Shown here piece after piece: positions 6,298-41,867 of a stretch of DNA of 64,000 nt. The DNA comes from Paraburkholderia phenazinium (GTDB taxonomy: Bacteria > Pseudomonadota > Gammaproteobacteria > Burkholderiales > Burkholderiaceae): NCBI RefSeq assembly GCF_900142845.1, contig NZ_FSRU01000001.1:3038001-3102000 (forward strand), written 5' to 3'. The stretch's first letter is position 1, and each line of letters begins with the position of its first letter. Made by a program: the position numbers and the translations under genes. Below the pieces are notes generated by a model. That model made no database searches. It was not told where the DNA came from and saw only the letters and a program-made list of their open reading frames with translations.

Positions 6298-6810
6298 ATG
6301 GACATCCGCGTACTTCGCTAATGCGAGACCATCGCCCGCCTCGGCAACATCACCCGCGCGGCAACTAAACTTCACATCGCGCAGCCCGCGTTGAGTGTTG
6401 CCGTGAAAAAGCTCGAGGAGGAAGTGGGCGTCACGCTCTTCACCCGTGGACGCAATCGCCCCGTGACCCTGACACCGGAGGGCGAATTGTTGATGCGCCG
6501 TGCGAAGCGCATCTTTCAGGAACTGGATTCAGCGCGACAGGAAATCGCAGACAGTCAGGAGTTGCGCACCGGTGAAGTCCGGGTGGGTATGCCGCCGATG
6601 TACGGACTGCAGTATTTCCCGCCCCTCATGCGTGCGTTCCATGCCCAGTACCCCGGCATCCGTGTTATTGCAATGCAGGGGAGCGCTGGCGAGGCCCGCT
6701 CGATTCTTGCTATCCTGGAGGGACGGCGCGTCGAGAAAGTGGATCGTTGCAAGGCATTGTCCCGTTCTCACGCACCGTCAGCCAGTGGCGCAATTGACAG
6801 ATTCCGGTAA
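6298..6810 (+). pseudogene. LysR-type transcriptional regulator, degraded
   Basis: From the ATG at 6298 the frame reads MDIRVLR and then hits a TAA. It continues in the same frame as a good LysR N-terminus (IARLGNITRAATKLHIAQ, PALSVAVKKLEEEVGVTLF), including the recognition helix. The start of the effector domain follows (RTGEVRVGMPPM, QYFPPLMRAFHAQYPGIRV). Homology is lost near 6720, well before the effector domain ends. The early stop plus 3' truncation make it a pseudogene, unless the stop is a sequencing error, and even then it would be truncated. Confidence 0.75.
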
Positions 6811-6871
6811 CATCACGCCACCGTGCAGAACCCCAAAAAGCACCCTGTTCACGCCTTCGACGTCACGCTAT

Positions 6872-7927
6872 TCAAGCCACCTCGGGTGATATCTTCGCGG
6901 CGGCAATCCGCGGCACGCTCGTCGATTCACGCACTACCAATTGCGTATCGAGCCGCGCCGACATGACCCGCCGCCCCGCGGTCAGCGCACCCATCAGCGA
7001 ACGCGCCGCATGACGCCCCATCTCCGCGGCCGGAACCGCGATCGTCGTCAATGCGGGAGAAAAAATGGTCGTGTAATCGTCGTCGTCAAAACCGACCACG
7101 GAGATATCCTCGGGCACGCGCAGGCCGAGACGTCGGCATTCCGCAATGGCGCTCAGCGCGAACACATCTGCGTTGCACACCACCGCGGTCACATCGGGGA
7201 ATTCGTAGTAGATCTGCCGCATCGCATCGGCGCCTTGCATCATCGCCGCGCCGTAGCTCTTTTCGATAATGTGGATGCCGTCGTTCAAACCATGCGCCCG
7301 CATGGTTTCCTCGAAGCCGCGCATGCGCGCCTGCTGACGGTCGTTGCCCTGCAGCGGACCGGCGACCATCGCCATATTCCTGTGACCAAGCCGGATCAGA
7401 AACTCCACGGCCTGCTTCGTCGCCGCGTAATTGTCGAAGCCGATGGACGGCACGATCGGATCTTCGTTATACGAATACGTGGTCACACAGGGAATCTGCG
7501 TTTCTTCCAGGTAGCTCCTGAGTCGCGGATCTTCGATCTTGCCGACCAGCAACAGCGCCTCGGCGCCGCGCTCGACGATCTTCTTGACCGCATCGAGCAT
7601 GTTCCGGTTGTCGAACCCGTTCGTCACCACGAACACGCTATACCCCGCGGCCGTGAGTTGTTCCTCGAACGCGTGCGTCATGCGCGCAAACATCGAGTAA
7701 TCGAGCGACGGAATCACTGCGCCGATGATGAACGACTTCTGCAGGCGCAGTGCCTTGGCCGCCGGATTCGGGCTGTAGCCCAATTGCATCGCCGCGTTGA
7801 ATACCTTTTCCCGGGCCTCTGCGCCGACGCGATCGGGAATGTTGAACGCACGGGAGACGGTCGCGACCGAGACGCCCGCAGCCTTCGCAACGTCGAATAC
7901 GTTCGCTTTTGCTTTCTGACTTTTCAT
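6872..7927 (-). CDS. LacI-family transcriptional regulator
   Basis: 351 residues, normal for the family. The N-terminus carries the LacI helix-turn-helix and hinge: VFDVAKAAGVSVATVSRAF, then RVGAEAREKVFNAAMQLGY, PNPAAKAL. The rest is a periplasmic-binding-protein-like effector domain with VSVVGFDDDDY-type ending motifs (DISVVGFDDDDYTTIFSPAL). It lies immediately downstream of the cupin-to-NIPSNAP operon, in the same orientation but with its own upstream gap holding an operator-like half palindrome (8005-8025), which suggests autoregulation. Similar palindromes stand before both transport and catabolic operons (11.66-11.74 kb, 16.13 and 16.25 kb), making it the likely local repressor. Confidence 0.88.
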   Translation of the reverse strand: MKSQKAKANVFDVAKAAGVSVATVSRAFNIPDRVGAEAREKVFNAAMQLGYSPNPAAKALRLQKSFIIGAVIPSLDYSMFARMTHAFEEQLTAAGYSVFVVTNGFDNRNMLDAVKKIVERGAEALLLVGKIEDPRLRSYLEETQIPCVTTYSYNEDPIVPSIGFDNYAATKQAVEFLIRLGHRNMAMVAGPLQGNDRQQARMRGFEETMRAHGLNDGIHIIEKSYGAAMMQGADAMRQIYYEFPDVTAVVCNADVFALSAIAECRRLGLRVPEDISVVGFDDDDYTTIFSPALTTIAVPAAEMGRHAARSLMGALTAGRRVMSARLDTQLVVRESTSVPRIAAAKISPEVA

Positions 7928-8004
7928 GGCTCAGCAAGATGGGAACGGCGGACAGGGTCCGCTATTCCTGTTTTGACGAGCCAAGTGTATCACCGCGAGG
8001 CCGG

Positions 8005-8025
8005 TTGGAAAACGATTACACGCAT
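8005..8025. promoter_or_regulatory. Operator-like site upstream of the LacI gene
   Basis: The sequence ttggaaaacgattacacgca has the same right arm (CGATTACAC) as the palindrome at 16128-16144 and the arm TTACACGCAT of the palindrome at 16252-16275. It sits about 80-100 bases upstream of the regulator's start, between that gene and the preceding operon. Binding by the LacI-family protein is inferred from similarity among sites only. Confidence 0.5.
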
Positions 8026-8082
8026 GCCCGCCGTACCGCGGCGGGGTAATCATCCAGCAATCCGTGGGCGCTCGCGCAGCCA

Positions 8083-8655
8083 TCAGTACGGACCTCTTTC
8101 ACAGGTTTTCGTGGTTCGGTGAACGGCACCGTGCGCTTCGAGCCAGTCCGAAGCAGGCGCCTCGCCGCGATCGCACACATACCACACGGCGTTCGGGTCC
8201 GGCATCTCTTCGGTCCATACGCCGCGCAACCCCAGCGGTCGGGCGGCCGCGACCGCAGAGGCCACCGCTGCGGCCTTGCCGGTTCTGCACCGGATGGTCG
8301 TGAAGACAATCGGCGCGGCGGCGAAATCGTCAATGGCGAACCCGGGCAGCCCGTCGATCGCGTAAGGGGTCAAGATCGTGAGCCGCTGGCTGCTGACCAG
8401 CGCGGCCGCCCCCGGCAAAAAATCGCGCGTCCACCGTTCGACCTGCGCCAACGCGGCACGCTTTGCCGTGCGCTCGACCAACGAGTCGTATTCCCACAGG
8501 TGATAAAACGTCACCACCTCGCCGGGGATCAGCCAGTTGGCCACCAGCCGACCGTAAGCGCTGCCCCGGATCGGCATCGCAAGATCCCTGAACAGGCTGA
8601 AGTAAGCATCCGCGGCCCGTACGTCGATCCGGTACTCGCGCAACTCGTGAATCAT
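8083..8655 (-). CDS. NIPSNAP-family protein
   Basis: About 190 residues starting MIHELREYRID, the typical NIPSNAP opening. A first ferredoxin-like alpha/beta-barrel unit is visible (FYHLWEYDSLVERTAKRAAL) and a second, weaker one in the C-terminal half. The upstream in-frame extension to 9003 is the shadow of the SDR gene, so the ATG at 8655 is chosen, 20 bases after that gene's stop. NIPSNAP domains form dimeric alpha/beta barrels, sometimes binding small hydrophobic ligands; many bacterial copies sit in catabolic operons without assigned activity. It is the last gene of the operon that begins with the cupin gene. Confidence 0.75.
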   Translation of the reverse strand: MIHELREYRIDVRAADAYFSLFRDLAMPIRGSAYGRLVANWLIPGEVVTFYHLWEYDSLVERTAKRAALAQVERWTRDFLPGAAALVSSQRLTILTPYAIDGLPGFAIDDFAAAPIVFTTIRCRTGKAAAVASAVAAARPLGLRGVWTEEMPDPNAVWYVCDRGEAPASDWLEAHGAVHRTTKTCERGPY

Positions 8656-8675
8656 GTCGAAGCACCCCTGGTCTG

Positions 8676-9440
8676 CTATCGGGCGGTATAGCCGCCATCC
8701 ACCGTGAACATTGCGCCCGTGGCGAACGACGACTCGTCTGACGCGAGGAACAGAGCCATCGTCGCAATCTCGTGCGGCTGTCCCATCCGGTTGACCGGCG
8801 CACGCGCCTTCAGTCCGCTGACGAAACCGTCCGGATCGGGCACGGTGCGCAACATCTCTTCGTAATAGCTCGACCAGATCACGCCGGGCGCGATGCTGTT
8901 GATGCGAATGTTCTGCTCCGCGTGATCCAGCGCCATCGAACGCGTCAACGCAGCCACGCCACCCTTCGCCGCGACGTACGCCGCGCGGTCCGGAATGCCG
9001 CACACGGCGGCCGTGGACGAAATATTGACGATGGCCCCTTTGCCACGCCGCGCAATCTCGGGAATTGCATACTTCGAACAGAGAAAAACGCTTTTCAGGT
9101 TGACCTCCATAATGCGGTCCCAGTCGTCTTCCTCCGTGTTCACGACGGTCCCGCGAATCCCCAGCCCCGCGTTGTTGACCAGGATATCAAGACCGCCGAA
9201 CGCACTGATCGTCGCGCCCACCGCATCGCGAATCTGCTGCGACACAACCACGTCGACGCCCACCGCGAGCGCGCGCTCGCCCAGCGTCGCAGCCACGCGC
9301 CGCGCCTGGTCGAGATTGCGGTCCGCTAACACGACCTGTGCACCTTCTTTCACAAAAAGTTCGGCGGTTGCTGCTCCAATGCCTGAAGCCGCGCCCGTCA
9401 CCAGGGCTACTTTTCCTTCGAGTCGCATATCGTTTCTCAT
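8676..9440 (-). CDS. SDR-family NAD(P)-dependent oxidoreductase
   Basis: 254 residues with a complete classical SDR signature: cofactor motif TGAASGIG, NNAG (ILVNNAGLGI), catalytic Ser in VNISSTAAV, and YVAAKGG (Tyr-x3-Lys). The C-terminal PVNRMGQPHEIA and DGGYTAR motifs are typical of dehydrogenases acting on sugars, hydroxy acids or ketoacyl substrates. The ATG at 9440 overlaps the stop of the aspartate-dehydrogenase-like gene (ATGA), showing translational coupling. It probably oxidises or reduces an intermediate of the LacI-regulated pathway; the substrate is unknown. Confidence 0.85.
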   Translation of the reverse strand: MRNDMRLEGKVALVTGAASGIGAATAELFVKEGAQVVLADRNLDQARRVAATLGERALAVGVDVVVSQQIRDAVGATISAFGGLDILVNNAGLGIRGTVVNTEEDDWDRIMEVNLKSVFLCSKYAIPEIARRGKGAIVNISSTAAVCGIPDRAAYVAAKGGVAALTRSMALDHAEQNIRINSIAPGVIWSSYYEEMLRTVPDPDGFVSGLKARAPVNRMGQPHEIATMALFLASDESSFATGAMFTVDGGYTAR

Positions 9441-10291
9441 CTCTGGATTAAATGTTCAAGACGGCGGAAAACCGCTTCTTCGATGCTCATTGCCGCGAGC
9501 CACGAGGTGCGCGGGTTGTCCGGTAAAGGATTGTTTTCGAGGCGGATGAACAGATGCCCGAAGGCACCCTGGGCCTCGACTTCATGAATGTTCCTGTCGA
9601 TGCCGGGATCGGCCGTTAGGACGACCGTCGTTTTGTCGAAGCCGATGCCGGCGAGTGCGACCGCAGCCGTGACATTGGCGTTCTTCGGGTAAAGTCGCGC
9701 CGATTCGCCGGCGCTGCCCTCGAAAATGACTGTCGGCCGATCGATCGCCAGCAGATCGAATTGCGACTCGGCAGGCGATCCGAGCCACGCGTGCAGCGGC
9801 TTTCTGCCGGTGTAGCGCACGAAATCGAGGCCACCTGTGCGCGCCGCATGCAATGCGTCGATACCGCCGATTGCGCCGGACACCAGCGTGACACGCGCGC
9901 CGCCGGCCTTCGCTGCGGCAGCGATCTCCTCGCGCAGCGATGACGAAGCGAGCGCGCCCACCGACACGACGATTGCGTCGACCCCACGCTCGAGCAGCGG
10001 CACCACTGCTTCGTGCACGGCGGCATGACCGGCGCACTCCACTGCGAGAGTCGGCCGCCACGCCACGAGCGTGTCGACATCATGAAAGACCTCGACGCCG
10101 TAAGTCTGCTTCAGCAGATCCGACTCGCCTGCGGCGTCCGGCACAAGGCAGCACCAGTCGAAATTCGCGGTGCCCAGTGTCTGCAACGCGGTGGCGACGC
10201 GCTTTCCCATCGCCCCCATGCCGATGATCAAAATACGTTCGCGAACCTCCGCGGACTCAAGAGGCACTGCAGCTAACTCGCGGACCGTCAT
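9437..10291 (-). CDS. Aspartate-dehydrogenase-like NAD(P) oxidoreductase
   Basis: 284 residues. The N-terminal Rossmann motif is ILIIGMGAMGKRVATAL. The central VVSVGALAS and SGAIGGIDALHAAR blocks, and YPKNANVTAAVALAG with its catalytic-region His/Asn pattern, match the L-aspartate dehydrogenase (NadX/AspDH) family; VVLTADPGIDRNIHEVEA is the usual C-terminal block. AspDH interconverts L-aspartate and iminoaspartate/oxaloacetate. In this operon, without nadA or nadC, a catabolic role on an amino or imino acid is more likely than NAD synthesis (inference). Start and stop overlap both neighbours by four bases. Confidence 0.82.
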   Translation of the reverse strand: MTVRELAAVPLESAEVRERILIIGMGAMGKRVATALQTLGTANFDWCCLVPDAAGESDLLKQTYGVEVFHDVDTLVAWRPTLAVECAGHAAVHEAVVPLLERGVDAIVVSVGALASSSLREEIAAAAKAGGARVTLVSGAIGGIDALHAARTGGLDFVRYTGRKPLHAWLGSPAESQFDLLAIDRPTVIFEGSAGESARLYPKNANVTAAVALAGIGFDKTTVVLTADPGIDRNIHEVEAQGAFGHLFIRLENNPLPDNPRTSWLAAMSIEEAVFRRLEHLIQR

Positions 10292-11067
10292 GCCGCCCTC
10301 CGGTCCAGAAAAGCGGTCACGTGGTCCGCAAACACATCCGGATAAACCTGCGGGAAAAAATGTCCCCCCACAGCGCCGACGAGCATCGCATTGCGGATGC
10401 GGCGCGCGAGATCTTCGGAATGGTGAAACGGAACGATGAAATCGTCTCGCGCGCCGACGATCAGCGCCTCGATATCGAGTGCGGCCAGTTCCTCAGAGCG
10501 CTCATAACCGAGCAGCATCTCGATCCGGCGCAACGCCGTCTGCACATCGAACTCGTCGTCGCCATCGAATCGCAGGCGGTCCGCAGCGAGATGCTGCTCG
10601 TACCAGCGGGCGTCGTAACCGAAGAGCCGCGCGAACGCCGAATAAGCGCGCGTGCCGAGCTTTTCGAGCATCAGGTGACGCAGATCGAACAGATCCCTGA
10701 AGCGGCGATCCGGCTTCGCCCACCCGCCGCTGAGTACGATCTTCGCGCAACGCGAGCGGTGATCGATTGCGAGCGTTTGCGCGACGAGGCTGCCTGTCGA
10801 GTGGCCGATCATATGAGCCACACGCACGTCCTCCACGTCGAGCACCTCGAGCGCCGCCTGCGCAATCAGTGCAATGCGCTGATCCGCGGCCTTCGTACTG
10901 CCGCCGACACCGGGATGATCGAACGCGATCACCCGGAAGCGGTCTGCGAGAAGTTCCGCCACAGGCCGCCAGAACGATGCGTGTCCACCGAGACCTGCGA
11001 TGCAAACAATCGCATCGCCGCGCCCGAGCGCCTCGTAATAGACACCTGAGCTTGTATGCCTGCCCAT
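10288..11067 (-). CDS. Alpha/beta-fold hydrolase
   Basis: 259 residues of the alpha/beta-hydrolase fold. The oxyanion region is IAGLGGHASFWRPVAELL, the FDHPGVGGS block follows, and the nucleophile elbow is GHSTGS (Ser). A plausible catalytic Asp lies in IVGARDDFIVP and the His in VGGHFFPQVYP. This architecture covers C-C bond hydrolases, esterases, lactonases and enol-lactonases (PcaD-like). It starts three bases after the cupin gene and overlaps the aspartate-dehydrogenase-like gene, so it belongs to the same transcript. A ring- or chain-cleavage step is possible, but the substrate cannot be deduced. Confidence 0.83.
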   Translation of the reverse strand: MGRHTSSGVYYEALGRGDAIVCIAGLGGHASFWRPVAELLADRFRVIAFDHPGVGGSTKAADQRIALIAQAALEVLDVEDVRVAHMIGHSTGSLVAQTLAIDHRSRCAKIVLSGGWAKPDRRFRDLFDLRHLMLEKLGTRAYSAFARLFGYDARWYEQHLAADRLRFDGDDEFDVQTALRRIEMLLGYERSEELAALDIEALIVGARDDFIVPFHHSEDLARRIRNAMLVGAVGGHFFPQVYPDVFADHVTAFLDRRAA

Positions 11068-11070
11068 CGC

Positions 11071-11625
11071 TCAGCTCCCATCCCGTGGAGTGGAAAAGAC
11101 CGTGCGTGCTTCGATCTCAGCGACGTTCTCCGGTCGCGCAAACGGTTCGGGAGCAGCTTCGCCCGGCTTGCGTCGACGGCCGATTTGCCGGAAGAAAGTC
11201 TCGAGACCCGAGGGCAGGAAGAACCAGGCCCAGTGCAGATCGACATCGCCGTCGTTGATGAACGTGTGGGTACGCAGCTTGCCGAGAAACAGCGTCATGC
11301 CCGGCTCGAGCCGGTACTCGGCGCCATCCAGAACGGCCTTGCCGTGACCCGCGATGAAATGCAGGACTTCCTCATTGTCGGTATGCGAATGCAGCCTGAC
11401 GACGCCGCCGGGCGGCACCGTCTGGGTTCCCACCGAGAACGGCCGATCCATCGGGACGAGATGCGGCGCCACATGGACAGACGCATAGCCATTGGCCGGC
11501 TGTGGCTGCCAGTAACTCTCTTCGTCGCGTGGATGCACGAGCAGAAACTTGCCGCCCTCGCCTGCGGCGCGTTGCGCCGGCTGCTTCAATCCACCTGTTT
11601 CATCACCATTGCTGCTCATGCTCAC
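11071..11625 (-). CDS. Cupin-domain protein
   Basis: 184 residues with one clear cupin barrel: motif 1 VVRLHSHTDNEEVLHFIAG gives the metal-ligand pattern H-x-H and Glu, and motif 2 is PGMTLFLGKLRTHTFIND with the last His. This metal site fits either a small dioxygenase/isomerase or a non-catalytic binding protein. An Arg/Pro-rich tail follows. It is the first gene of the cupin, hydrolase, AspDH-like, SDR, NIPSNAP operon, and its start lies 35 bases from an operator-like site. Confidence 0.8.
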   Translation of the reverse strand: MSMSSNGDETGGLKQPAQRAAGEGGKFLLVHPRDEESYWQPQPANGYASVHVAPHLVPMDRPFSVGTQTVPPGGVVRLHSHTDNEEVLHFIAGHGKAVLDGAEYRLEPGMTLFLGKLRTHTFINDGDVDLHWAWFFLPSGLETFFRQIGRRRKPGEAAPEPFARPENVAEIEARTVFSTPRDGS

Positions 11626-11657
11626 TCTCCGTACGGAATGACATGTGACCTATAAAT

Positions 11658-11740
11658 ACGAAATCGATTACCGCTCAATGAATCGCGTTATAGCGCTCTA
11701 TTCGTTTGAATTACCTTGTCTTTTGGTAATCGATTTCACC
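11658..11740. promoter_or_regulatory. Promoter region with two inverted operator-like sites
   Basis: Two copies of GGTAATCGATTTC occur in opposite orientation, at 11660-11672 (as gaaatcgattacc) and 11725-11737, about 52 bases apart. They lie directly upstream of the cupin gene (start 11625) and just after the end of the racemase-family gene. The core matches the site at 16131-16142. Two spaced sites would suit looping repression by a LacI-type tetramer or dimer pair (inference). Confidence 0.6.
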
Positions 11741-11778
11741 TTGAGGCTGAGTGTGACGCCTTACGACTCCACGCCGGC

Positions 11779-12807
11779 CTACTCTCTCCAGATGTCGTTT
11801 AACCGATAGCCGGTGGGGAACGGGTCGGACCGATCGAGGACGTACTGATGAAACCCGGTGATCCACGCACTCCCCGTGATCGCGGAACGAATGCCGGGTC
11901 GGCCGCCCACCGTCAGCGTCTCGACGATCTCGCCTGTGAACTCCGTGCCGATAATCGACCGGTTCAAGAACTTCTCGCCCGGCTCGATCAGACCGCGTGC
12001 GTGCAGCACGGCAAGCCGCGCACTGGTGCCGGTGCCGCAAGGCGAGCGATCCAGCCTGCCCGGCGACACGATCACACCGTTTTTCGACGCCAGTCTCGCC
12101 GGGGTACGTTCGAGCGGACCCGCAAACAGCGTCTGATTGATCGTGTGAATCTCCGGCATTTCCGGATGGACTGCCGGAATCTGCTCGGCTGCGGCGGCCT
12201 TGATCGCTTCACCGATCTTCACCATGTCTGCCGCTTCGGACGGCTCAACTGAAAATCCTACGGAAGCCGCATCGACCAGCACATAGATCATCCCGCCGTA
12301 CGCAACGTCCACGGTCAGCGTTCCGAGGCCGGGTACTTCGACGGGAAGATCCAGGCCGAACACGAAACACGGCACATTGGCGAACCGGACATTCAGGCAC
12401 TTGCCGTCCCGACACTCTGCTTGCACCTCCACGAGGCCGCCCGGCGCCTCGAGAACCAGACGCGTATAAGGTTCCTGCATCGGCAACATGCCGGTTTCGA
12501 GCAACGCCGTCACGGTGCAGATCGTGTTGCTGCCGGACATCGGCACGTAGTACTCCGACTCCATGATGACGAACCCCGCGTCCGCCCTGGGATCGCAGGG
12601 CGGCAGCACCAGATTGATACATTGCGTGACACTGCCGCGCGGCTCCTGCAACAGGAACTTGCGCAGATCGTCTGCCTCGCGCTCGAGATATTGCATCTTC
12701 TCGAACATCGTCTTGCCTGGCACGTCGAGCACGCCGCCGGTAATTACATCGTTGCGTTCGCCGGCTGTGTGAACGCCGACCACCGTAATCATTCGCTTCA
12801 TTTCCAT
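11779..12807 (-). CDS. Proline-racemase-superfamily enzyme, Ser/Cys active site (putative hydroxyproline epimerase)
   Basis: 342 residues, normal length. The first active-site position, Cys in proline racemase, is Ser91 in VPMSGSNTICT; the second is the usual Cys257 in RSPCGTGTSA. Published sorting of the superfamily by these two residues assigns Cys/Cys to proline racemases and 4-hydroxyproline epimerases, Cys/Thr to trans-3-hydroxyproline dehydratases, and Ser/Cys to epimerases that can act on 3- and 4-hydroxyprolines. The DVAYGGMIYVLVDA block near the middle is typical. It is the last gene of the transcript that begins with the periplasmic binding protein gene, so its substrate is probably what the importer brings in. 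Confidence 0.85.
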   Translation of the reverse strand: MEMKRMITVVGVHTAGERNDVITGGVLDVPGKTMFEKMQYLEREADDLRKFLLQEPRGSVTQCINLVLPPCDPRADAGFVIMESEYYVPMSGSNTICTVTALLETGMLPMQEPYTRLVLEAPGGLVEVQAECRDGKCLNVRFANVPCFVFGLDLPVEVPGLGTLTVDVAYGGMIYVLVDAASVGFSVEPSEAADMVKIGEAIKAAAAEQIPAVHPEMPEIHTINQTLFAGPLERTPARLASKNGVIVSPGRLDRSPCGTGTSARLAVLHARGLIEPGEKFLNRSIIGTEFTGEIVETLTVGGRPGIRSAITGSAWITGFHQYVLDRSDPFPTGYRLNDIWRE

Positions 12808-12886
12808 GGCCTGATTTCCTGCCTGAGTTCGTGCCTGATCCTCGATCGGAAGCGGCGTCGCCGCCCCTGTCCATGTCCCTGCCCGG

Positions 12887-13546
12887 CTAGAAGCGCTTCA
12901 GCACTTTTCGCTCGATCCTGCCGACGCAGCGCGTGAGCGGAAACGCGACGACGAAGTAGATGAGCGCCGTTGTCGTGAGAACTTCAACTGGACGCGCGCT
13001 CGTATTGGCAATGTTCTGGCCGACGAACATCAGGTCCGCCATGCCGAGCGCGGACACCAGCGCACTCTCCTTGAACAGGCTGACGATGTTCGACAGCAGC
13101 GGCGGCATCGCACGCACGAAAGTCAGCGGCAAGATGACATGGACGATGCGCGTCATCCGGCCAAGACCCAGCGCCACGCACGCGTCGAGCTCTTCCTTGC
13201 GGATCAGCGCGAGGGAGCCGCGGAACGTTTCGCACGTAATCGCGCCCATGTACAAGGACAGCGCCGTCAGCGATGCGACGACGATGCCGACGTCGACGTG
13301 AAGCAGAAGCGGCAGGCAGAAGAAGAACCAGAACAGTTGCACGAGCAACGGTGTGCCGCGGAACAGCTCCACATAGCCGGCCGCCAAAGCGCGCACGGGC
13401 GCGCTGCCGTATGTACGCAACAGGCTCGCAATAAACCCGAGCACGATGCCCGCAATCGATGCGCCGACGGTCAGCTTCAATGTGAGCGCGAGCCCGGCAA
13501 GCAGAGGGTCGATGTATCCCAGAAGAAACAGAAAATTGAATTTCAT
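12887..13546 (-). CDS. Amino-acid ABC transporter permease (HisM/GlnP type)
   Basis: About 219 residues with five or so membrane segments and the conserved permease loop that docks on the ATPase: ELDACVALGLGRMTRIVHVI, LPLTFVRAMPPLL. The N-terminal YVELFRGTPLLVQLFWFFF is the classical polar-amino-acid permease segment. The ATG at 13546 (MKFNFLFLL) is preferred over a longer frame because it follows the partner permease by four bases. It forms the membrane channel with the next permease. Confidence 0.85.
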   Translation of the reverse strand: MKFNFLFLLGYIDPLLAGLALTLKLTVGASIAGIVLGFIASLLRTYGSAPVRALAAGYVELFRGTPLLVQLFWFFFCLPLLLHVDVGIVVASLTALSLYMGAITCETFRGSLALIRKEELDACVALGLGRMTRIVHVILPLTFVRAMPPLLSNIVSLFKESALVSALGMADLMFVGQNIANTSARPVEVLTTTALIYFVVAFPLTRCVGRIERKVLKRF

Positions 13547-13550
13547 ACCG

Positions 13551-14222
13551 TTACACCGAATAGCGCAGCGCACGCCGGCGTTCGACGCCCCGAAGAATCT
13601 GGGCAACGGCCACCGATACGGCCAGGTACAGCAACCCTACTGTCGTAAAGACCTCGAGCGGCCGGTAGGTGTCGGACGCCAGTTCCTTGCCGCGATACAT
13701 CAGTTCCTGAATCGCCACGACGGAAAGCAGTGAGGTCTGCTGCAATGCTGAAATACCGTTCGTCACGAGTACCGGATAGGCGCTTCGGAACGCATGCGGA
13801 AGGACGATGTAGATGGCGCGCTGAAACGGCGACAAGCCGAGCGCGATACCCGCATCATGTTGTTCCCGCGGCACCGACTGAATGCCGGCGCGGTAGGCTT
13901 CCGCGTTGAAGGCCGTGAGATTGAGCGAGATGACGAGAATGCCCATCGTCACCGGTGTCAGAAATACGTTGAAGATGATCGGCACGCAGTAAAAGAACCA
14001 CACCACCTGGACCAGCGCGGGCGTGCAACGAAAAAATTCGACGAATGCCGAAACCAGCATACGGATCAGCCGCGAACGGGCCTGCGACAGCAGGCCAACC
14101 CCGAACCCTGCAACCACGCCGATTGCGTTCGCACACAGCGCGATCAGGAAAGTGATTGCGAGACCCTGACGCAATGCGTCGAGCCCCGACGAGATCGACG
14201 AGAAATCGAAGGAGTAAGTCAC
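13551..14222 (-). CDS. Amino-acid ABC transporter permease (HisQ/GlnP type)
   Basis: About 223 residues from a GTG at 14222, chosen because AGGAG lies seven bases upstream; the longer TTG-initiated frame overlaps the ATPase gene. It has the family motif AFVEFFRCTPALVQVVWFFY and the cytoplasmic loop EQHDAGIALGLSPFQRAIYI, VLPHAFRSAYP. It pairs with the following permease in a heterodimeric importer for a polar amino acid. Confidence 0.83.
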   Translation of the reverse strand: MTYSFDFSSISSGLDALRQGLAITFLIALCANAIGVVAGFGVGLLSQARSRLIRMLVSAFVEFFRCTPALVQVVWFFYCVPIIFNVFLTPVTMGILVISLNLTAFNAEAYRAGIQSVPREQHDAGIALGLSPFQRAIYIVLPHAFRSAYPVLVTNGISALQQTSLLSVVAIQELMYRGKELASDTYRPLEVFTTVGLLYLAVSVAVAQILRGVERRRALRYSV

Positions 14223-14232
14223 GCTGGCACTC

Positions 14233-15096
14233 CTAGTCAATGTGCAGGACGTTGTTCAGAAATTCGCGGGTCCGCTCATGCTGCGGGTTCCTGAACAACT
14301 GCTCGGGCGTACCCGACTCGACGACGACGCCGTCCGCACAGAAGAGAATCCGTGAGGCGACCTTCTTCGCGAACCACATGTCGTGCGTGACCATGATCAT
14401 CGGCATCGCGTTCGCGGCCAGTTCCTGAATCACCAGTTCGACTTCCGCGACCAGTTCCGGGTCGAGTGCCGACGTGACCTCGTCGAACAGCATGAGCTTC
14501 GGGTCGAGCATCAACGCGCGCGCGATCGCCACGCGCTGCTTCTGGCCGCCCGAGAGCTGGGCCGGATAGGCGCGTGCCTTCGCTGCGAGACCGAGCCGTT
14601 CCAGAAGGTGGAGCGCGCGCTGTTCAGCCGAGCTGCGCGACTCCCCTTGTGTCTTGCATGGGGCCAACGTGAGATTACGCAGCACATCCAGATGCGGGAA
14701 AAGCGTGTAGTGCTGAAAGACCATGCCGACCCGCTTGCGAATCGCCAGATCCATGCGGGTTTGCCGGGATTTGGGATCGAAAGACAGATAGCGCTGACCA
14801 TCGAATTCGACGCTGCCGCCGTCGATCGTCTCAAGGCCCATCAGCACGCGCAGCAACGTGCTTTTGCCGCCGCCGCTCGGGCCGATTACGACGAGCCGGT
14901 CGTCGGGTTGCATGTCGAAATCCAGCCCTTTCAACACCTGCAGAGTGGGACTGTATTGCTTGCACAGCCCTCGCATCCGTACCAGCGGTTGCACGCCGCT
15001 GTACGCAGGTGCATCTGCCGGGTTGAAGCCGTCGCGCGACGGTGCTGCATCCCTCTCGTCCATGGTTTGCCGGCCCACCTTCATCACTTGTTCCAT
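14233..15096 (-). CDS. Amino-acid ABC transporter ATP-binding protein (GlnQ/HisP type)
   Basis: About 287 residues. Walker A is GPSGGGKST, the signature is [15 protein letters not shown], Walker B is [16 protein letters not shown], and the H-loop is MIMVTHDM. The [11 protein letters not shown] form is typical of polar-amino-acid ATPases. The ATG at 15096 has GAGGAAA at good spacing; the TTG further upstream is less likely. An extra 40 residues precede the ABC domain, a little longer than usual. It energises the two permeases encoded immediately after it. Confidence 0.9.
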
Positions 15097-15131
15097 TTGC
15101 TTTCCTCGCAACGGCTGCGCGTGTCATCAGC

Positions 15132-16010
15132 TTATTGCTTGACCGACTGCGCAGCCTGCTTGACCGCGGCGTCCACGCTTGTCTTCACGAAACCCGTCCT
15201 GGTCTGCTGCTCGATAAACTGGTTAAGCAGATTCAGGTCGGCAGCAGTGAAACTTTTGTTCAGACCAAACGCGACGTCTTGCAGATTGAACGAAGGGGTC
15301 GCGCGGAAAATCTCGGCCCAGTCGGGATGCGCCGCCTGGAAGATCAGATTCGCGTCGGATTGATCGGCCAGCAGATCGGCGCGATGGGAAATCACTGCAA
15401 GACGCGTGCTGTCTGCATCCGGCAGACGGAGGATTTGCGCCTGTTTGATGGCCGGCGTGATGGCCTTGTCGTCGGTGGTCCCCTGCACCACCGCGATAAC
15501 GATGCCCGGCTTGTCGATGTCGGCCACCGATTTGATCGGCGTCGGCAACTTCGAATCGGTGCGGCTGTACACGAAGTCCGTATCGTTGCGAACCACCGCG
15601 GTCGAGAAGTTGATCACCTGTTCCCGAACCGGCGTACGGTTGATGGCCATCGCCAGGTCCCACTTGTTCGTTTGCAGCCCCGCGACCATGTTGTCCCACG
15701 TCGTATCGACGAAGCGGACTTTCACCTTCAGTACGCTCTCGCCGAACTTGCGGCACAGATCGCTAAAGGCACCGGAGTAATCGCCGGTTTTCGGATCGCG
15801 CACGACGAACGGCGGCGCCAGCGCCGCGCCGCAGCGCAGTTCGCCGGCTTTGCGGATCGACGCAAACGTGGTTTCTTCCGCACTGGCGGGCGCCATCGCG
15901 CTGCCGATTCCGCTCGCGATACACACGCTCAACACAATTGACTTCAGGGTCGAGCGCAGCGTTTTCCGATCGAAAATCGATTGCGCCTCAGCAGGATGCA
16001 TGGTCTTCAT
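15132..16010 (-). CDS. Periplasmic amino-acid-binding protein (ABC importer)
   Basis: About 292 residues from the ATG at 16010. A long N-terminus with basic residues and a hydrophobic core (LKSIVLSVCIASGIGSAM) ends in ASAEE, a good signal-peptidase I site. The mature part begins SIRKAGELRCGAALAPPFV, and WDNMVAGLQTNKWDLAMAIN is the ligand-contact region typical of the SBP_bac_3 family. It heads the operon binding protein, ATPase, two permeases, racemase-family enzyme. The ligand is probably proline-like or another small polar amino acid, given the enzyme (inference). Confidence 0.85.
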   Translation of the reverse strand: MKTMHPAEAQSIFDRKTLRSTLKSIVLSVCIASGIGSAMAPASAEETTFASIRKAGELRCGAALAPPFVVRDPKTGDYSGAFSDLCRKFGESVLKVKVRFVDTTWDNMVAGLQTNKWDLAMAINRTPVREQVINFSTAVVRNDTDFVYSRTDSKLPTPIKSVADIDKPGIVIAVVQGTTDDKAITPAIKQAQILRLPDADSTRLAVISHRADLLADQSDANLIFQAAHPDWAEIFRATPSFNLQDVAFGLNKSFTAADLNLLNQFIEQQTRTGFVKTSVDAAVKQAAQSVKQ

Positions 16011-16127
16011 GATAGTCGTAGGTTCCAAAGAATGAACACAGGGGCACGGGTTTGAAGGCTCTGTATCCGGAACGCGCCGCGCCTTCCCGGCGCGACGCTT
16101 CCAACGTTTTCAGCCTATTCGTCTGAC

Positions 16128-16144
16128 GTGGTAATCGATTACAC
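16128..16144. promoter_or_regulatory. LacI-type operator palindrome upstream of the importer operon
   Basis: gtggtaatcgattacac contains a perfect 12-base palindrome, GTAATCGATTAC (16131-16142), with a central CG as in most LacI-family operators. It lies about 120 bases upstream of the binding-protein start and shares its core with sites at 8005, 11660 and 11725. Confidence 0.65.
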
Positions 16145-16251
16145 AAAATACTGAAAAACACACGATGATCCGCGTGCTCCGCGCTGGTGACCTAGCGCTT
16201 GCTGCTCTTGGCGCATCCGGAGTGCGTAAACCCATGCTAGGTGAAAAAAAA

Positions 16252-16275
16252 ATGCGTGTAAAGGATTACACGCAT
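16252..16275. promoter_or_regulatory. Second palindrome upstream of the importer operon
   Basis: atgcgtgtaa-agga-ttacacgcat is a perfect 10-base inverted repeat with a four-base spacer. Its right arm reappears in the site before the LacI gene at 8016-8025. It may be an auxiliary operator for the same regulator, or the binding site of another factor. The rest of 16276-16498 shows no gene. Confidence 0.5.
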
Positions 16276-16519
16276 CCGTAAATACGAGCATTCGTCGGCG
16301 GTATCGCGAACCGGCTCGACGCCGACCTCGAACGCACGCAAAAACAGCCGTGGCCGGCGCCCGTGCCGCTCCTTGCATCCCAATTACTGGCATATTCAAA
16401 ATCAATTAAACAAACGCCGGCAACGGTCGATAACAAGTTAAGCCGCTTCCCTCCCGCGGTTGGACTTTTCATGCAGAGCTCATACAACTATTTGCTGGTC
16501 ACGATTTCGTTTGTCGTTG

Positions 16520-17627
16520 CGACACTCTGAACGGCGTCTGCGCATTAGCCTCGATCAGCGCCGACTCGGCATCCACCTGCGAGGGATATAACTGCAGATC
16601 GAAGGACAGCCCGAATTCCCTCAGTAGTCTGAAGTGTTCCAACCAGCGCGGCTCGGTCAGATAATCGAGCGCGACATAGTTATACTTGGGATCGCCGTGC
16701 CAGGTTGAGCACCTGGCGAATACCCCGCACGTTACGGTGGGCCACCGCATCGGCCAGCAGCGCACGCGCATCCTCGCGCAACAGGTCGACACCCGCGACG
16801 ATGCCTTCGGGCTTACCCGACGACAGCGGATCGTCGGCGAGCGCCTGCAGCCAGTCGACTTCCGTCGGAGACGTCCACGCGTCATGGATCGCCTCGACGT
16901 GCACGACCTTCAGCACGTCGATCTCCGCGGCGCTGTCGGCGACGTCGTCCGGCTCCCCCAGCCTGCCGAGCGGAATCCGCTGCTCGAAATAGGCGCGCTT
17001 GTCGGACTCGCTCAGGTCGGCCTCGTTGATCTCGGTCCGGATCGTGCCCGGCAAGACCGAATTGCAACGGATCCGGTGCGGCCCCAGCGCAACCGCGCAC
17101 GACTGCATTAGCGCGTGCACGCCGGCCTTGGTCGGCGTGTAGTGAGTCTGCAGCGCACCGCCGACGAGCGCGCTGATCGAGCTCGTCGCGACGATCGCCC
17201 CGCCCCCGCCCTGCCGAACCATCTGTTTCGCCACCGCCTGCGCTACATGGAACGCCCCATGCAGATTGACCTCCATGGTCCGCTGCAATAGCTCGGACGG
17301 CAGATCGAGAAACGCATGGAACGGACAGATGCCGGCGTTGCTCGCAAGCACATCGACTCGCCCGAATGCATCGACCGCGCGAGCCACCAGGTCCACAGCC
17401 GTCTCCGGCCGCGCGATGTCGCCCGGCACGGCGATCGCTTCACGTCCGGTAGCACGGATTTCGTCGAGCAGGCTGTCGATCTGATGGTCGAGCTGTCCCG
17501 GCAACAGCGGATTGCTCCAGTAGTTCAGCGCGACATGGGCGCCGTGCCGCGCACATGCCAGCGCGATCGCGCGCCCGATGCCTCGCGACCCGCCCGTCAC
17601 CACCACGACCTTGTCTTTGAGCAGCAT
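16520..17627 (-). pseudogene. L-rhamnose 1-dehydrogenase-like SDR fused by deletion to a lactonase (amidohydrolase) fragment
   Basis: From the ATG at 17627 the first 230 residues are an SDR: TGGSRGIGRAIALACA, then VLASNAGICPF, SSISALVGG, and Tyr163-x3-Lys167 (HYTPTKAG). The opening MLLKDKVVVVTGGSRGIGRA resembles NAD(P)-dependent L-rhamnose 1-dehydrogenases. After GRLGEPDDVA the expected last 20-25 residues are missing. The frame runs into an amidohydrolase-2 segment (VDVLKVVHVEAIHDAWTSP) of the kind found in L-rhamnono- or L-fuconolactonases. Near 16690 the frame shifts; the lactonase continues in the next frame (WHGDPKYNYVALDYL, FDLQLYPSQVDA) and stops short. A deletion has joined two genes and both look dead. 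Confidence 0.75.
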
Positions 17628-17660
17628 GGATGCCCTCCTGTGGCCTGTCCCGAGCCGGGA

Positions 17661-18189
17661 TCAACGTGCATACGGCCGCTGGGTGTGCACCTCCGGATTC
17701 AGCCTCACGCCGAAACCTGGCGTGTCGGGCACCTTCATCTTGCCGATGACGGCCACGGGCTCATCCAGCAGCAGCGGAGCGAACATCGGGACGACCCGGT
17801 CGGCATCCGGCGCCATCATCAGGAACTCGGAAACGGACTGTTGTGACGCGTCGTCATGAAATGACAGCTGTAGACCGACGAGCCATGCGGGATTACCAGC
17901 ACGCCCGTGCATCCGCCAGCGCCGAGATCTTGATCAGTTCGGTGATACCGCCGCACCAGCCGACGTCAGGCTGGATGATGTCGCAGCACTCCATTTCGAG
18001 CAGCATCCGGAAGCCCCGGCGCGTGGCTTCGTGCTCACCCGTCGTCACCAGCATGCCGTGCGGAACGTTAGCGCGCAGTTGCGCGTAGCCCCAATAATCG
18101 TCGGGAGGCAGGCATTCCTCGACCCACTTGAGACCGAACTCCTGCGCGCGATGCGCGAGCTTCGTCGCGTATGGCAGATCGAGGCTCAA
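17661..18189 (-). pseudogene. L-rhamnonate dehydratase, 5'-truncated and frameshifted
   Basis: In one frame SLDLPYATKLAHRAQEFGLK, WVEECLPPDDYWGYAQLR and CCDIIQPDVGWCGGITELIK form the metal-binding core of an enolase-superfamily acid-sugar dehydratase. Around 17905 the frame is lost, and another frame supplies the C-terminus: SEFLMMAPDADRVVPMF, then LLLDEPVAVIGKMKVPDTPG. This ending is typical of L-rhamnonate dehydratase. The N-terminal capping domain is absent. With the SDR-lactonase relic just downstream, this looks like a decayed non-phosphorylative L-rhamnose pathway. Confidence 0.78.
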
Positions 18190-18262
18190 TATGTCGAATG
18201 GTGGGCATGCTCATGGACGTCACTCCATGTAGGGAAAGCCGGATCGCAGCGGGAGGTCAGGC

Positions 18263-19198
18263 CTAATGCGCCCAGCGCAGCACAAGTGCGTCGAGACGCC
18301 GGGCGATCTCGACAAGGCTCTGCCGGGTAGCCGGATGAAGCGGCGTTAGCGGCCGGCGCGGCGCGTCGGAGGCGATAATCCCACCCTCCTTCATTAAAGC
18401 CTTGCACGCCATCAGGCCCGACTGGCGATTCTCGAAGTTGATCAACGGCAGCCATTTCTCGTAGATACGCACCGCATCCTCACGATTGCCCGCCAGATAT
18501 TCGCGAATGATCGGCTGCAAGCCGTCCGGGTAACCCGCTCCCAGCACACTGCCAGTCGCGCCCGCGTCGAGATCCGCGAGCAGCGTGATCGCTTCTTCAC
18601 CGTCCCACGGCCCTTCGATGGCGTCGCCGCCCAGTTCGATCAGTTCTCTCAGCTTGGCGGCCGACTGGGGTACCTCGATCTTGAAGTAGCTCAGGTTGGG
18701 AATCTCGTGGGCCATCCGCGCAAGAAAAGCGGCCGACACCTGGGTACCGCTCATCGGCGCATCCTGATACATGATAGGAATCTCGATGCGCTCCGATACG
18801 TCGCTGAAGAACGCATGGATCGCCGCTTCGCCACACCGGATCGTGGCGCCGTGATACGGTGGCATGATCATGACCATCGCCGCGCCACGAGCCTGTGCGT
18901 CACGGCTGCGCTCCGCGCAGATGCGCGGGTTGAAATGCGTCGTGGTCACAATCACCGGCACGCGCCCGGCCACATGATCGAGTATCGTCGCGGTCAGGCG
19001 CTCCCGTTCGGGGTCCGACAGGGAAAACTGTTCCGAGTAGTTTGCGAGGATGCAAAGACCATCCGCACCGGCGTCGATGATGAAATCGATGCAGCGTTTC
19101 TGGCCCTCGAGATCGAGGTTCCCCTGTTCGGTAAAGATCGTCGGAGCGACGGAATACGCTCCTGTGTAACGGCGTCCGCCGGGCGATACTCGGTTCAT
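18263..19198 (-). CDS. DHDPS-family lyase (2-keto-3-deoxy-acid-sugar aldolase/dehydratase type)
   Basis: 311 residues, normal for the dihydrodipicolinate synthase family. GADGLCILANYSEQFSLS is the substrate-loop region, Tyr in PIMYQDAPMSG is the catalytic-type tyrosine, and Lys in LSYFKIEVP is the Schiff-base lysine. True DapA would carry GTTGE; its absence (ANYSE) points to a sugar-acid branch, such as 2-keto-3-deoxy-arabonate dehydratase or a keto-deoxy-sugar aldolase. Lying directly upstream of the broken rhamnonate dehydratase on the same strand, it could have handled 2-keto-3-deoxy-L-rhamnonate (inference). It appears intact although its pathway neighbours are broken. Confidence 0.8.
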   Translation of the reverse strand: MNRVSPGGRRYTGAYSVAPTIFTEQGNLDLEGQKRCIDFIIDAGADGLCILANYSEQFSLSDPERERLTATILDHVAGRVPVIVTTTHFNPRICAERSRDAQARGAAMVMIMPPYHGATIRCGEAAIHAFFSDVSERIEIPIMYQDAPMSGTQVSAAFLARMAHEIPNLSYFKIEVPQSAAKLRELIELGGDAIEGPWDGEEAITLLADLDAGATGSVLGAGYPDGLQPIIREYLAGNREDAVRIYEKWLPLINFENRQSGLMACKALMKEGGIIASDAPRRPLTPLHPATRQSLVEIARRLDALVLRWAH

Positions 19199-19303
19199 TA
19201 CGGCTCCTTAATTTTAATTAGCATTACAGATTTATTTATACAATCATATCCATCAAATATCATATTGAAGATTCACAACAGGAAAGAACAGTTCCGGCGA
19301 ACG

Positions 19304-21126: not shown

Positions 21127-21918
21127 TCAAATCGTAAACAGCCGGCCAAACTGCGGCAAGCGGTCTTCGACACCGCCGAGCCGCAACGCATGCCAGGCCA
21201 GTGCATGATTACTCGACAAAACCGGCTTGCCCAGCTTTGCTTCGATCTCGGCGATGGCGTCGACGAGCCGCAGACTCGTGCAGGAAACGAACACCGCGTC
21301 GACGTCCGGATCGCGGCCCAGTTCGAGTACCGCGTATTCGAGCGAGGCGCGATCGATGCGGGCCACTTCGTTATCGTCGCGATGCTCGAACGAGCCGACA
21401 CTGACGACGTCGACGCCGCGCGCCTTGAGGTAATGGCTCATCGCGTCGTTGATCGGGCGCTCATACGGTGTCAGCAATGCCACCCGCTGGGCGCCGAGCG
21501 CGTCGAGCGCGATGCGCGCGGCAGTGATGGGGGTCGTACAGGCGACACCCGGGCGCGCCTCGCGGATACGTTCGAATACCCGCTCCTCGCCCAGCACCAT
21601 CGAAGCCGACGTGCAACCGAACGCGACCACATCGAGATGCTCGCCCGGGCGAATCAGCTCCACCGCAGCCGCGATCCGGCCGTCCATCTCGGCAAGCGTC
21701 TCAGCCGTGATCTCGGCCGAATTGGCAACCCGGCTTTCATAGAACGCCACACCGTCGAGCGACAGCATGCGCCGCCATTCAAACTCGATCGTATGATCGG
21801 TCGCCAGCACGACGAGGCCGATCGCCGCGCGCCCCGCGATCCCGTCGTCCAGCGAAAAGCCGAAGCGCGCGTATGCGCCCGGAGGAGAGTCGATAGGGCT
21901 CGATTGAAGTTCGCTCAC
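21127..21918 (-). CDS. Asp/Glu-racemase-superfamily enzyme (maleate isomerase/EutA-like)
   Basis: About 263 residues from a GTG at 21918 that overlaps the stop of the FAD oxidase gene (GTGA). Two conserved cysteines stand in VAFGCTSASMVLGE and VFVSCTSLRLVDAI, the two-Cys arrangement of aspartate/glutamate racemases, maleate cis-trans isomerases and the ectoine-utilisation protein EutA. C-terminal LSSNHALAWHALRLGG is typical of the maleate isomerase/EutA branch. It probably racemises or isomerises a small dicarboxylic or amino acid handled by the adjacent oxidase and RidA. No doeA/doeB-type ectoine genes are nearby, so ectoine use is only one option. Confidence 0.75.
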   Translation of the reverse strand: MSELQSSPIDSPPGAYARFGFSLDDGIAGRAAIGLVVLATDHTIEFEWRRMLSLDGVAFYESRVANSAEITAETLAEMDGRIAAAVELIRPGEHLDVVAFGCTSASMVLGEERVFERIREARPGVACTTPITAARIALDALGAQRVALLTPYERPINDAMSHYLKARGVDVVSVGSFEHRDDNEVARIDRASLEYAVLELGRDPDVDAVFVSCTSLRLVDAIAEIEAKLGKPVLSSNHALAWHALRLGGVEDRLPQFGRLFTI

Positions 21919-23159: not shown

Positions 23160-23170
23160 CCGCCTCGCTC

Positions 23171-23518
23171 CTATAGCGCAGCAATCGCCGCGATTTCCAC
23201 CGTGTACTCGGGAAACGCGAGCTTCGATTCCACGCAGGCGCGCGCCGGCGCATCGCCTTTGGGAACCCACGCGTCCCAGATCCGGTTCATGTCCGCGAAG
23301 CTGCGGTAGTCGGCCAGCCAGATGCTGGCCGACACGATCCGGCGTTTGTCCGCGCCTACGCTGTCGAGCAGGCTGTCGATCTTGTCGAGGATCTGACGCG
23401 TCTGACCGGCGACATCGAGACTGCTGTCGCCGGCAACCTGGCCGGCGATGAATACCAGCCCGCCGGCCACGACCATCTGACTCATCCTGTCTCCCGCCCC
23501 ATAGCGCTTGATGTCCAT
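23171..23518 (-). CDS. RidA-family imine/enamine deaminase
   Basis: About 115 residues from the ATG at 23518, preceded by GGAGG at good spacing. LVFIAGQVAGDSSLDVAGQT and ARACVESKLAFPEYTVEI are the family's conserved blocks; the Arg in the second is the carboxylate-binding residue. RidA proteins hydrolyse reactive imino acids to keto acids and ammonia. As first gene before a DadA-like oxidase, a dedicated role on the oxidase product is likely. It ends 11 bases before the oxidase gene starts. Confidence 0.85.
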   Translation of the reverse strand: MDIKRYGAGDRMSQMVVAGGLVFIAGQVAGDSSLDVAGQTRQILDKIDSLLDSVGADKRRIVSASIWLADYRSFADMNRIWDAWVPKGDAPARACVESKLAFPEYTVEIAAIAAL

Positions 23519-23824
23519 CTTCCGAGCCTCCGTCAATCGATTCAGGTTGAACGCATTCTAGCCATCAAAATTCAGCACTGTATACACTTTTTTAATCAAA
23601 TTATATCGATTCCCCATTTCGATTCGCGATCCTGATCGTGGTGCAACGGATTTCTCAGTCTCTGTGCAAAAATGCTTTAAAACAGTGAATTATGCGAAAA
23701 AACCGCATGCCTGAAAATTCCTGCCGCAGCCGTTTAAAAAAATTCCCAAACGTTTTTTGTTCTGTGATTCTGTCGACACTTCTGTATATCAACCACCACT
23801 TATTGATGCTTTTGGAGAACGACA
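23519..23824. promoter_or_regulatory. Divergent promoter region with GntR-type palindromes
   Basis: This AT-rich spacer separates ridA (minus strand) from the importer operon (plus strand). TGTATACA at 23579-23586 is a perfect palindrome, about 60 bases upstream of ridA. TGTATATC at 23783-23790 lies about 35 bases upstream of the binding-protein gene. FCD-type GntR regulators often bind short palindromes of this kind, so the local GntR protein may control both directions (inference). No gene is seen inside. Confidence 0.5.
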
Positions 23825-24928: not shown

Positions 24929-24954
24929 AGGCAGCGGCGCTACCGGAGCCCATC

Positions 24955-35033: not shown

Positions 35034-35075
35034 TTCGTGAGAAGCAGGTGACGCGCGAAGCAAGCGAGGATGTAT

Positions 35076-38596: not shown

Positions 38597-38612
38597 GCCG
38601 CGTGTCTCCTGC

Positions 38613-41857: not shown

Positions 41858-41867
41858 CGCGCCTCCC

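Follow-up and report, generated by a model that had tools for sequence, protein, structure and literature searches.

Two described routes of hydroxyproline catabolism draw on the proline racemase superfamily. The canonical trans-4-hydroxy-L-proline pathway consists of 4-hydroxyproline 2-epimerase (4HypE), D-hydroxyproline (D-Hyp) oxidase, Pyr4H2C deaminase and KGSA dehydrogenase, and the trans-3-hydroxy-L-proline pathway of a dehydratase and a Pyr2C reductase. Here we describe a gene cluster of Paraburkholderia phenazinium, at positions 6872 to 16275 of a 64,000-nucleotide stretch of contig NZ_FSRU01000001.1 (the whole stretch is called the window below), that has features of both. Like the canonical pathway it combines a predicted racemase-superfamily epimerase with an amino acid importer, and it shares the racemase superfamily with the trans-3-hydroxy-L-proline route. 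Unlike the canonical pathway, the cluster includes no D-Hyp oxidase, Pyr4H2C deaminase or KGSA dehydrogenase, and between 1000 and 21500 no DAAO-, DHDPS-, HAD- or aldehyde dehydrogenase (ALDH)-family match rose above the thresholds used. Unlike the trans-3-hydroxy-L-proline pathway, it is without the reductase of that route and has Cys for Thr in its racemase-family enzyme. Key genes of both routes are encoded elsewhere in the genome (8.5 Mb in three contigs) and pass their cut-offs, a 4-hydroxyproline epimerase at locus L073 and a trans-3-hydroxyproline dehydratase with a Pyr2C reductase at L072, in agreement with an earlier, sequence-only reading of the window, which had held the cluster to be distinct from the known hydroxyproline route. 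The best overall explanation, which we advance tentatively, is that a LacI-family repressor controls the import of a 4-hydroxyproline-type compound and its breakdown to aspartate.

It is nearly certain that the importer operon, the cupin operon and lacI form one LacI regulon. All eleven genes named by the sequence-only reading were recovered at the positions it gave, from the open reading frame (ORF) list and the Pfam and NCBIfam scans, as were its two operons, lacI and five related operator-like sites. The regulator gene (6872..7927, on the minus strand like all genes of the cluster) encodes the Pfam domains LacI and Peripla_BP_3. Matches to KGTAAWCGWTTACM lie before lacI (8007..8020, one mismatch, probably for autoregulation), twice before the cupin operon (11659..11672, two mismatches, and 11725..11738, one mismatch) and twice before the importer operon (16130..16143, no mismatch, and 16257..16270, one mismatch). 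At up to two mismatches these are five sites against 0.2 expected in a first-order Markov sequence of the 13-kb stretch. A looser pattern, GGTAATCGATTACC with up to three mismatches, gave five matches in the whole window against 1.28 expected, with five or more in 1 of 100 shuffles; one of the five, at 10758, sits inside the hydrolase gene, probably by chance, and the site at 16257 was missed. A strict 16-base pattern derived from the sites occurs at five places in the 8.5-Mb genome and its reversed-pattern control at none; three of the places are in this cluster by construction, so that the result speaks for the rarity of the pattern elsewhere. At 16257 the operator-like site coincides in part with a -35-like box (16262-16257), which would fit a repressor site, though weakly, as the sigma-70-like match before the importer operon, the single one in 6700-16500, is itself no better than chance (one found against 2.4 expected in shuffles).

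Palindromic sites stand before the regulated operons in relatives too and are conserved alongside the regulator, which is 99% identical in P. fungorum, 82% in three Burkholderia and Caballeronia loci and 41-44% in rhizobial and Paracoccus loci. Each of the 13 LacI-carrying loci scanned contains two to five matches with up to two mismatches (0.0-0.4 expected), and five loci without LacI, or with a LacI of only 32% identity, contain none, so the proposal of a self-contained LacI regulon is strengthened. Three of the relatives' matches are intragenic and probably due to chance (L047 at 1659, L076 at 8750, L077 at 11629). In L055 sites precede lacI (906), the genes for a GMC oxidoreductase, a short-chain dehydrogenase/reductase (SDR), NIPSNAP, ALDH and the racemase-family enzyme, a dienelactone-hydrolase-family gene and the cupin gene, and another lies between NIPSNAP and ALDH. 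L049, L050 and L051 have a site between the cupin gene and a divergent aspartase gene, L049 has two more upstream of an NCS1-type permease, and L051 one between ALDH and lacI. The LacI gene of L050 (69%) is found just beyond the edge of its stretch, and past that gene (L123, genome G411) operator-like matches were also seen at 1585, 6854 and 7946.

The gene set itself is well supported as a conserved unit shared among proteobacteria. A cupin profile scan of named genomes yielded 13 loci, and the closest named copy found is that of Paraburkholderia fungorum LMG 16225, whose proteins are 94 to 99.5% identical to their counterparts here. P. fungorum, Burkholderia sp. S171, a Caballeronia metagenome-assembled genome and C. 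udeis share the succession solute-binding protein, ATPase, permease, permease, racemase-family enzyme, cupin, hydrolase, L-aspartate dehydrogenase family protein (AspDH) and SDR, together with LacI; in the three other than P. fungorum, lacI is oppositely oriented and NIPSNAP was not found in the locus. Plasmids of Rhizobium sp. 11515TR, Shinella zoogloeoides and Paracoccus versutus carry LacI, racemase-family enzyme (70-72% identical to that of P. phenazinium), GMC oxidoreductase, cupin, hydrolase, AspDH, SDR and NIPSNAP, to which they add an ALDH and a different ABC importer (of sugar type, with SBP_bac_1, in L075, where scanned). The co-occurrence that the sequence-only reading had named as a check is thus seen in four other named Burkholderiaceae records and, for LacI and the enzymes, on these plasmids. 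A further arrangement, on plasmids of P. phenoliruptrix and P. sabiae and in P. aspalathi, joins racemase-family enzyme, cupin, hydrolase and AspDH genes to 3-hydroxyacyl-CoA-dehydrogenase-like, FAD-oxidoreductase, DHDPS and ALDH genes.

Counts over 27 cupin loci are 22 for the hydrolase, 21 for AspDH, 18 for the racemase family, 17 for the SDR, 13 for LacI (one of them at only 32% identity, and the gene of L050 falling beyond its stretch), 11 for NIPSNAP and 5 for aspartase. The 27 are all loci left after removal of duplicates (L033, L034, L037, L038, L059 and the short AspDH loci L001, L004 and L005); L056 and L065, on short contigs or near contig ends, were retained, and L049 and L052 (one contig), like L054 and L061 (one genome), are not independent. 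Where all three genes occur, the order cupin-hydrolase-AspDH is kept in 17 of 21 loci, from both beta- and alphaproteobacteria, the exceptions being L066 and L078, with AspDH ahead of the hydrolase, and L058 and L060, with AspDH apart. As lower bounds, genome searches found the cupin in at least 12 of 398, at least 2 of 369 and at least 2 of 398 genomes, the source genome included. In a genus search of 144 genomes, 104 had some AspDH-family match, most at 44-52% identity, and only three an orthologue of at least 60%; the cluster therefore appears sparse and perhaps mobile, several relatives being plasmid-borne.

The end product of the pathway is probably aspartate. AspDH (9437..10291) scores 283.8 bits with the NCBIfam model PRK13303.1-2 (cut-off 226) and also passes the cut-offs of the -3 and -4 subfamilies, while remaining below the -1 model (264.9 of 479) and NadX (181 of 207); its His236, presumably the catalytic His, is kept in 21 of 21 rows. 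A stronger hint than AspDH is suggested by the recurring aspartase. Four of the five aspartases (all but that of L050) were scored in full and exceed the subfamily cut-off of 510, and two, from L034 (the same place as L049) and L051, reach 701 bits against an aspA equivalog cut-off of 681. In Rhizobium and Shinella the aspartase gene adjoins the ALDH gene at the far end of the importer genes, and Paracoccus has a short aspartase-like ORF at the matching position. That the cupin and hydrolase are accompanied by two kinds of aspartate-consuming enzyme suggests aspartate as the product of the pathway. A HAD-like phosphatase gene, recognised by eye, also recurs near aspartase (L120 5519-6223, L034 14692-15360, L059 12134-12847); the two that were scanned gave no NCBIfam match.

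For the substrate, we regard it as about evenly balanced whether it is hydroxyproline-like, that is, a ring amino acid of the 4-hydroxyproline type. This assignment draws on residues of the SDR, on the racemase family and on cupins beside or fused into hydroxyproline-type clusters. The SDR (8676..9440) is predicted to be an NAD-dependent dehydrogenase acting on a ring alcohol that bears a carboxylate, of the 4-hydroxyproline type. In the solved dehydrogenase L-KDFDH, according to passages of PMC11199699, Arg148, Arg192 and Arg214 bind the carboxylate, C2 hydroxyl and O5 of the ring-form substrate, and both this enzyme and human BDH2 oxidise cis-4-hydroxy-L-proline. The cluster SDR has arginines at the positions of Arg148 and Arg214, namely R152, with the same spacing to the catalytic Tyr (Tyr155-3), and R213, placed by alignment across a loop of unequal length. 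Arg occurs at Tyr-3 in 17 of 17 cluster-type SDRs and, by eye, in the R213 column of all 17 rows. As controls we took the 29 best of 106 SDR paralogues of the same genome, two of which were dropped; among the 27 that align at the catalytic Tyr, three have the first Arg, six the second and two both. Of these two, L093 scores 358 bits against the solved enzyme and 267 bits against BDH2 and is the orthologue of L-KDFDH; the other, L105, shows the same sequence pattern.

The racemase-family enzyme (11779..12807, Pfam 419 bits) is a predicted hydroxyproline-type 2-epimerase. It has the two proton-transfer residues required of a 4-hydroxyproline 2-epimerase (Cys/Cys or Ser/Cys) as Ser91 and Cys257; a solved Agrobacterium vitis 4-hydroxyproline epimerase, 4LB0, has Ser93/Cys255, as given in passages of PMC4113996. 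A proline racemase would have Cys/Cys and reach the equivalog cut-off, and here the pair is Ser/Cys with 311 bits against 556. The enzyme looks like a separate Ser/Cys subfamily, because it falls under every cut-off while the genome's other copies pass theirs. As to the cupins, L061 holds at 9592-11715 an ALDH with a cupin of the same family fused at its C-terminus, next to a 4-hydroxyproline epimerase (581.8 bits, above the cut-off of 376), two DHDPS-family genes and a D-amino-acid-dehydrogenase-like gene (205.9 bits, under its cut-off of 383).

We propose the following scheme. As long as neither the substrate nor an intermediate is present, LacI would keep its own gene and the two operons repressed. 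The ABC importer would bring in a 4-hydroxyproline-type substrate whose C2 epimers the racemase-family enzyme would interconvert, and the SDR, with NAD+, would oxidise the ring hydroxyl, turning 4-hydroxyproline into 4-oxoproline. The cupin (11071..11625) would then act as a ring-cleaving dioxygenase, using O2 and a metal site of three His and one Glu to break the C4-C5 bond and yield N-formylaspartate, a step modelled on other cupin dioxygenases that cleave enols beside a carbonyl. The alpha/beta hydrolase (10288..11067) would release formate and aspartate, and AspDH would convert aspartate to oxaloacetate and ammonia, as aspartase in relatives would convert it to fumarate and ammonia. SDR, cupin, hydrolase and AspDH are each employed once; the NIPSNAP-domain protein (8122..8655, Pfam 50 bits) is left without a role, and the GMC oxidoreductase and ALDH of rhizobia and L055 could serve in an upstream oxidation of an alcohol precursor.

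The reactions proposed for cupin and hydrolase are drawn by analogy. The cupin matches the motifs HxH(X4)E and H(X3)N at H79, H81, E86, H120 and N124, all five invariant in 28 of 28 rows; its family has 1234 database matches at E 0.001, the solved cupins nearest to it are remote (best E 1e-6), and a quercetinase follows at E 0.0066. The hydrolase keeps its triad Ser90-Asp209-His236 in the alignment (Ser in 22 of 23 rows, Asp and His in 23 of 23), and its best NCBIfam model is RutD, with 146 bits under a cut-off of 238.5. Genes, sites, co-occurrence and residue conservation can be read directly from the DNA, whereas substrate, reactions and step order are what we infer from them. We rate the full scheme through cupin and N-formylaspartate as doubtful, if still a serious candidate. 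That it represents a previously undescribed O2-dependent hydroxyproline catabolism, in which a cupin cleaves 4-oxoproline to N-formylaspartate and formate and aspartate follow, is possible but rather unlikely; among the matches listed in the open-access literature we recognised no report of this cluster or of a step from 4-oxoproline to N-formylaspartate. Of the sequence-only reading's imported cyclic amino acid, epimerised, opened and deaminated, the outline appears to stand, with the evidence now pointing to a substrate of the 4-hydroxyproline type and to aspartate as the product.

Several observations weigh against this proposal. The racemase-family enzyme does not reach the cut-off of any of the six NCBIfam models that it matches (among them 263 bits against 376 for the 4-hydroxyproline epimerase equivalog NF010578, with 164 against 450 and 123 against 442 for other models, and 430 against 550), and its substrate may therefore differ. 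According to passages of PMC11199699, L-KDFDH favours its sugar acid over cis-4-hydroxy-L-proline about 760-fold, so the arginines would indicate a carboxylated ring alcohol and not hydroxyproline alone. The loop of the cluster SDR is about five residues shorter (Tyr+58 instead of Tyr+63), and the equation of R213 with Arg214 therefore depends on the alignment; Arg192 has no clear invariant equivalent (R198 here, K or other residues in relatives, with loops differing in length), and neither L-KDFDH nor BDH2 is among the 60 best solved matches of the SDR. The aspartases of Rhizobium and Shinella score 604 and 631 bits, under the aspA equivalog cut-off.

Gene content adds to these points. L061 and L062 have the cupin with canonical-type hydroxyproline genes and without hydrolase and AspDH, and in L052 the cupin is accompanied by the racemase-family and GMC genes only, so that the cupin may have another role. 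Rhizobial and Paucimonas versions carry a GMC oxidoreductase and an ALDH that the scheme does not use; a GMC partner sought in the source genome gave a best identity of 48%, with no close orthologue. L066 and L078 have genes for a KstD-like flavoprotein, a B12-binding protein and a pyruvate-dehydrogenase-like enzyme and no racemase-family match (L066 judged by eye), a content different enough that these loci may serve another purpose; their B12-binding-domain protein is of about 580-610 residues, and L066 also has hydantoinase-like genes, again by eye. Finally, outside the regulon, a more distant DHDPS-family gene (18263-19198) and a DadA-like gene (21915-23270), both recognised by eye, could in principle provide canonical steps. 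No DHDPS match was found at the corresponding place in the P. fungorum relative, and the second gene falls beyond the stretch compared.

The alternative that survives best keeps the regulon and the aspartate product and replaces the substrate by another ring compound, such as hydroxypipecolate, dihydroxyproline or an iminosugar-like hydroxymethylpyrrolidine. The carboxylate required by the racemase-family enzyme and the SDR would in rhizobia be made beforehand from a CH2OH arm, which the GMC oxidoreductase and ALDH would oxidise. The Rhizobium, Shinella and Paracoccus versions, with their sugar-type importer (SBP_bac_1 in L075), GMC oxidoreductase and ALDH, would suit such a substrate, as would the scores of the racemase-family enzyme below the hydroxyproline cut-offs and the variant on plasmids of two Mimosa-associated Paraburkholderia with its 3-hydroxyacyl-CoA-dehydrogenase-like, FAD oxidoreductase, DHDPS and ALDH genes. 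However, aspartate would seem to require an unsubstituted C3 and an oxygen on C4, six-membered rings would leave a substituent on the nitrogen that no gene of the cluster obviously removes, and the P. phenazinium cluster has neither GMC oxidoreductase nor ALDH. We consider another substrate unlikely.

It is also conceivable, if distinctly unlikely, that the cupin is an isomerase or an accessory protein and that ring opening comes about in another way, such as C-C or lactone hydrolysis by the hydrolase, the rest being unchanged. Single-domain cupins include isomerases, the solved relatives of this cupin are remote, and L061 and L062 manage without hydrolase and AspDH; yet the full metal site of three His and one Glu is invariant in all 28 rows, and the cupin gene adjoins the hydrolase gene in most loci. 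We give very little credence to a 3-hydroxyproline route, in which the racemase-family enzyme would dehydrate trans-3-hydroxy-L-proline to Pyr2C and the AspDH-like enzyme would reduce the imine to proline. Some Ser/Thr members of the family are dehydratases, as passages of PMC4113996 state, but in every copy beside the cupin the second catalytic residue is Cys, not Thr, a dehydratase and Pyr2C reductase pair passing its cut-offs sits at L072, and cupin, hydrolase, SDR and aspartase would be left without a role. A mere accretion of unrelated catabolic genes behind one repressor, to which common gene families and the variation of NIPSNAP, GMC, ALDH and importer type among loci might point, is the least probable of all, being contradicted by the co-occurrence, by the gene order kept in 17 of 21 loci across two proteobacterial classes and by the conserved operators.

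The importer operon begins with a family-3 solute-binding protein of amino acid type (15132..16028, Pfam SBP_bac_3), followed by an ABC ATPase of the polar amino acid type (14233..15111; EhuA, 295.8 bits, below the cut-off of 345), a second permease (13551..14240, an ORF recognised by its relation to the P. fungorum permeases, start codon uncertain) and a permease with BPD_transp_1 (12887..13606; EhuC, 161.8 bits, below the cut-off of 197; start codon possibly internal). The second permease is 98.6% identical in P. fungorum (L033), where it is 33% identical to the other permease. An amino-acid-type importer is thus paired with the racemase-family enzyme, as had been claimed. An ectoine importer or pathway was considered and rejected; the ABC proteins are nearest to the Ehu models, yet under their cut-offs.

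Several other regions of the window were assigned by eye. Apparent remnants of a sugar-acid locus occupy 16500-19200, with an SDR ORF ending in amidohydrolase-like sequence, a short enolase-family-like fragment and the DHDPS-family gene mentioned above. The DadA-like FAD amino acid dehydrogenase gene shares the region 21915-27510 with genes for a RidA-like protein and an ABC importer of the branched-chain type; together they may form a second operon for amino acid catabolism. A tRNA-Sec with selA/selB-like and formate-dehydrogenase-like ORFs lies at 34938-45146, which is of interest because the proposed pathway would release formate.

Under the proposal, an orphan set of genes becomes a pathway that can be tested, with a candidate substrate and product for each enzyme. 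If true, it would add an aspartate-yielding branch to amino acid catabolism and give a role to an uncharacterised cupin family, to a Ser/Cys proline racemase subfamily and to the pairing of AspDH and aspartase. It would also explain the use of these genes on some replicons of plant-associated Paraburkholderia, Rhizobium and Shinella. The origin of 4-oxoproline is called unclear in passages of PMC8914325, and the pathway would provide a bacterial source and sink for this compound.

Among described enzymes, BDH2, a 4-oxo-L-proline reductase, and L-KDFDH share with the cluster SDR the fold, an Asp at the NAD-type position (D40) and both Arg positions; they differ in being distant in sequence, in a third arginine that is not clearly kept in the cluster SDR and in its shorter loop. 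Acireductone dioxygenase and quercetinase are dioxygenases with three His and one Glu as ligands, and the cluster cupin has the same metal motif with little sequence similarity to them. AspDH, hydrolase, cupin and SDR families also occur together in clusters of the PA3504-PA3511 type. In the source genome, L003, which we take to resemble the P. aeruginosa PA3504-PA3511 gene order, contains by eye genes for an ALDH, an AspDH (48%), a thiamine pyrophosphate (TPP) enzyme, SDRs, IclR, a hydrolase, a cupin and a Rieske protein. Unlike the cluster described here, it has the TPP enzyme, ALDH, Rieske protein and IclR and no racemase-family match; it was rejected as a template, since its cupin and hydrolase are only weakly similar to those of the cluster and therefore do not give the pathway. 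Some relatives, L054, L060, L074 and L079, share with the canonical 4-hydroxyproline pathway DAAO-, DHDPS- and ALDH-family genes, which stand beside cupin, hydrolase and AspDH; the P. phenazinium cluster differs from that pathway in the racemase-family enzyme, which lies below the curated cut-offs, and in its predicted end product, aspartate and not 2-oxoglutarate.

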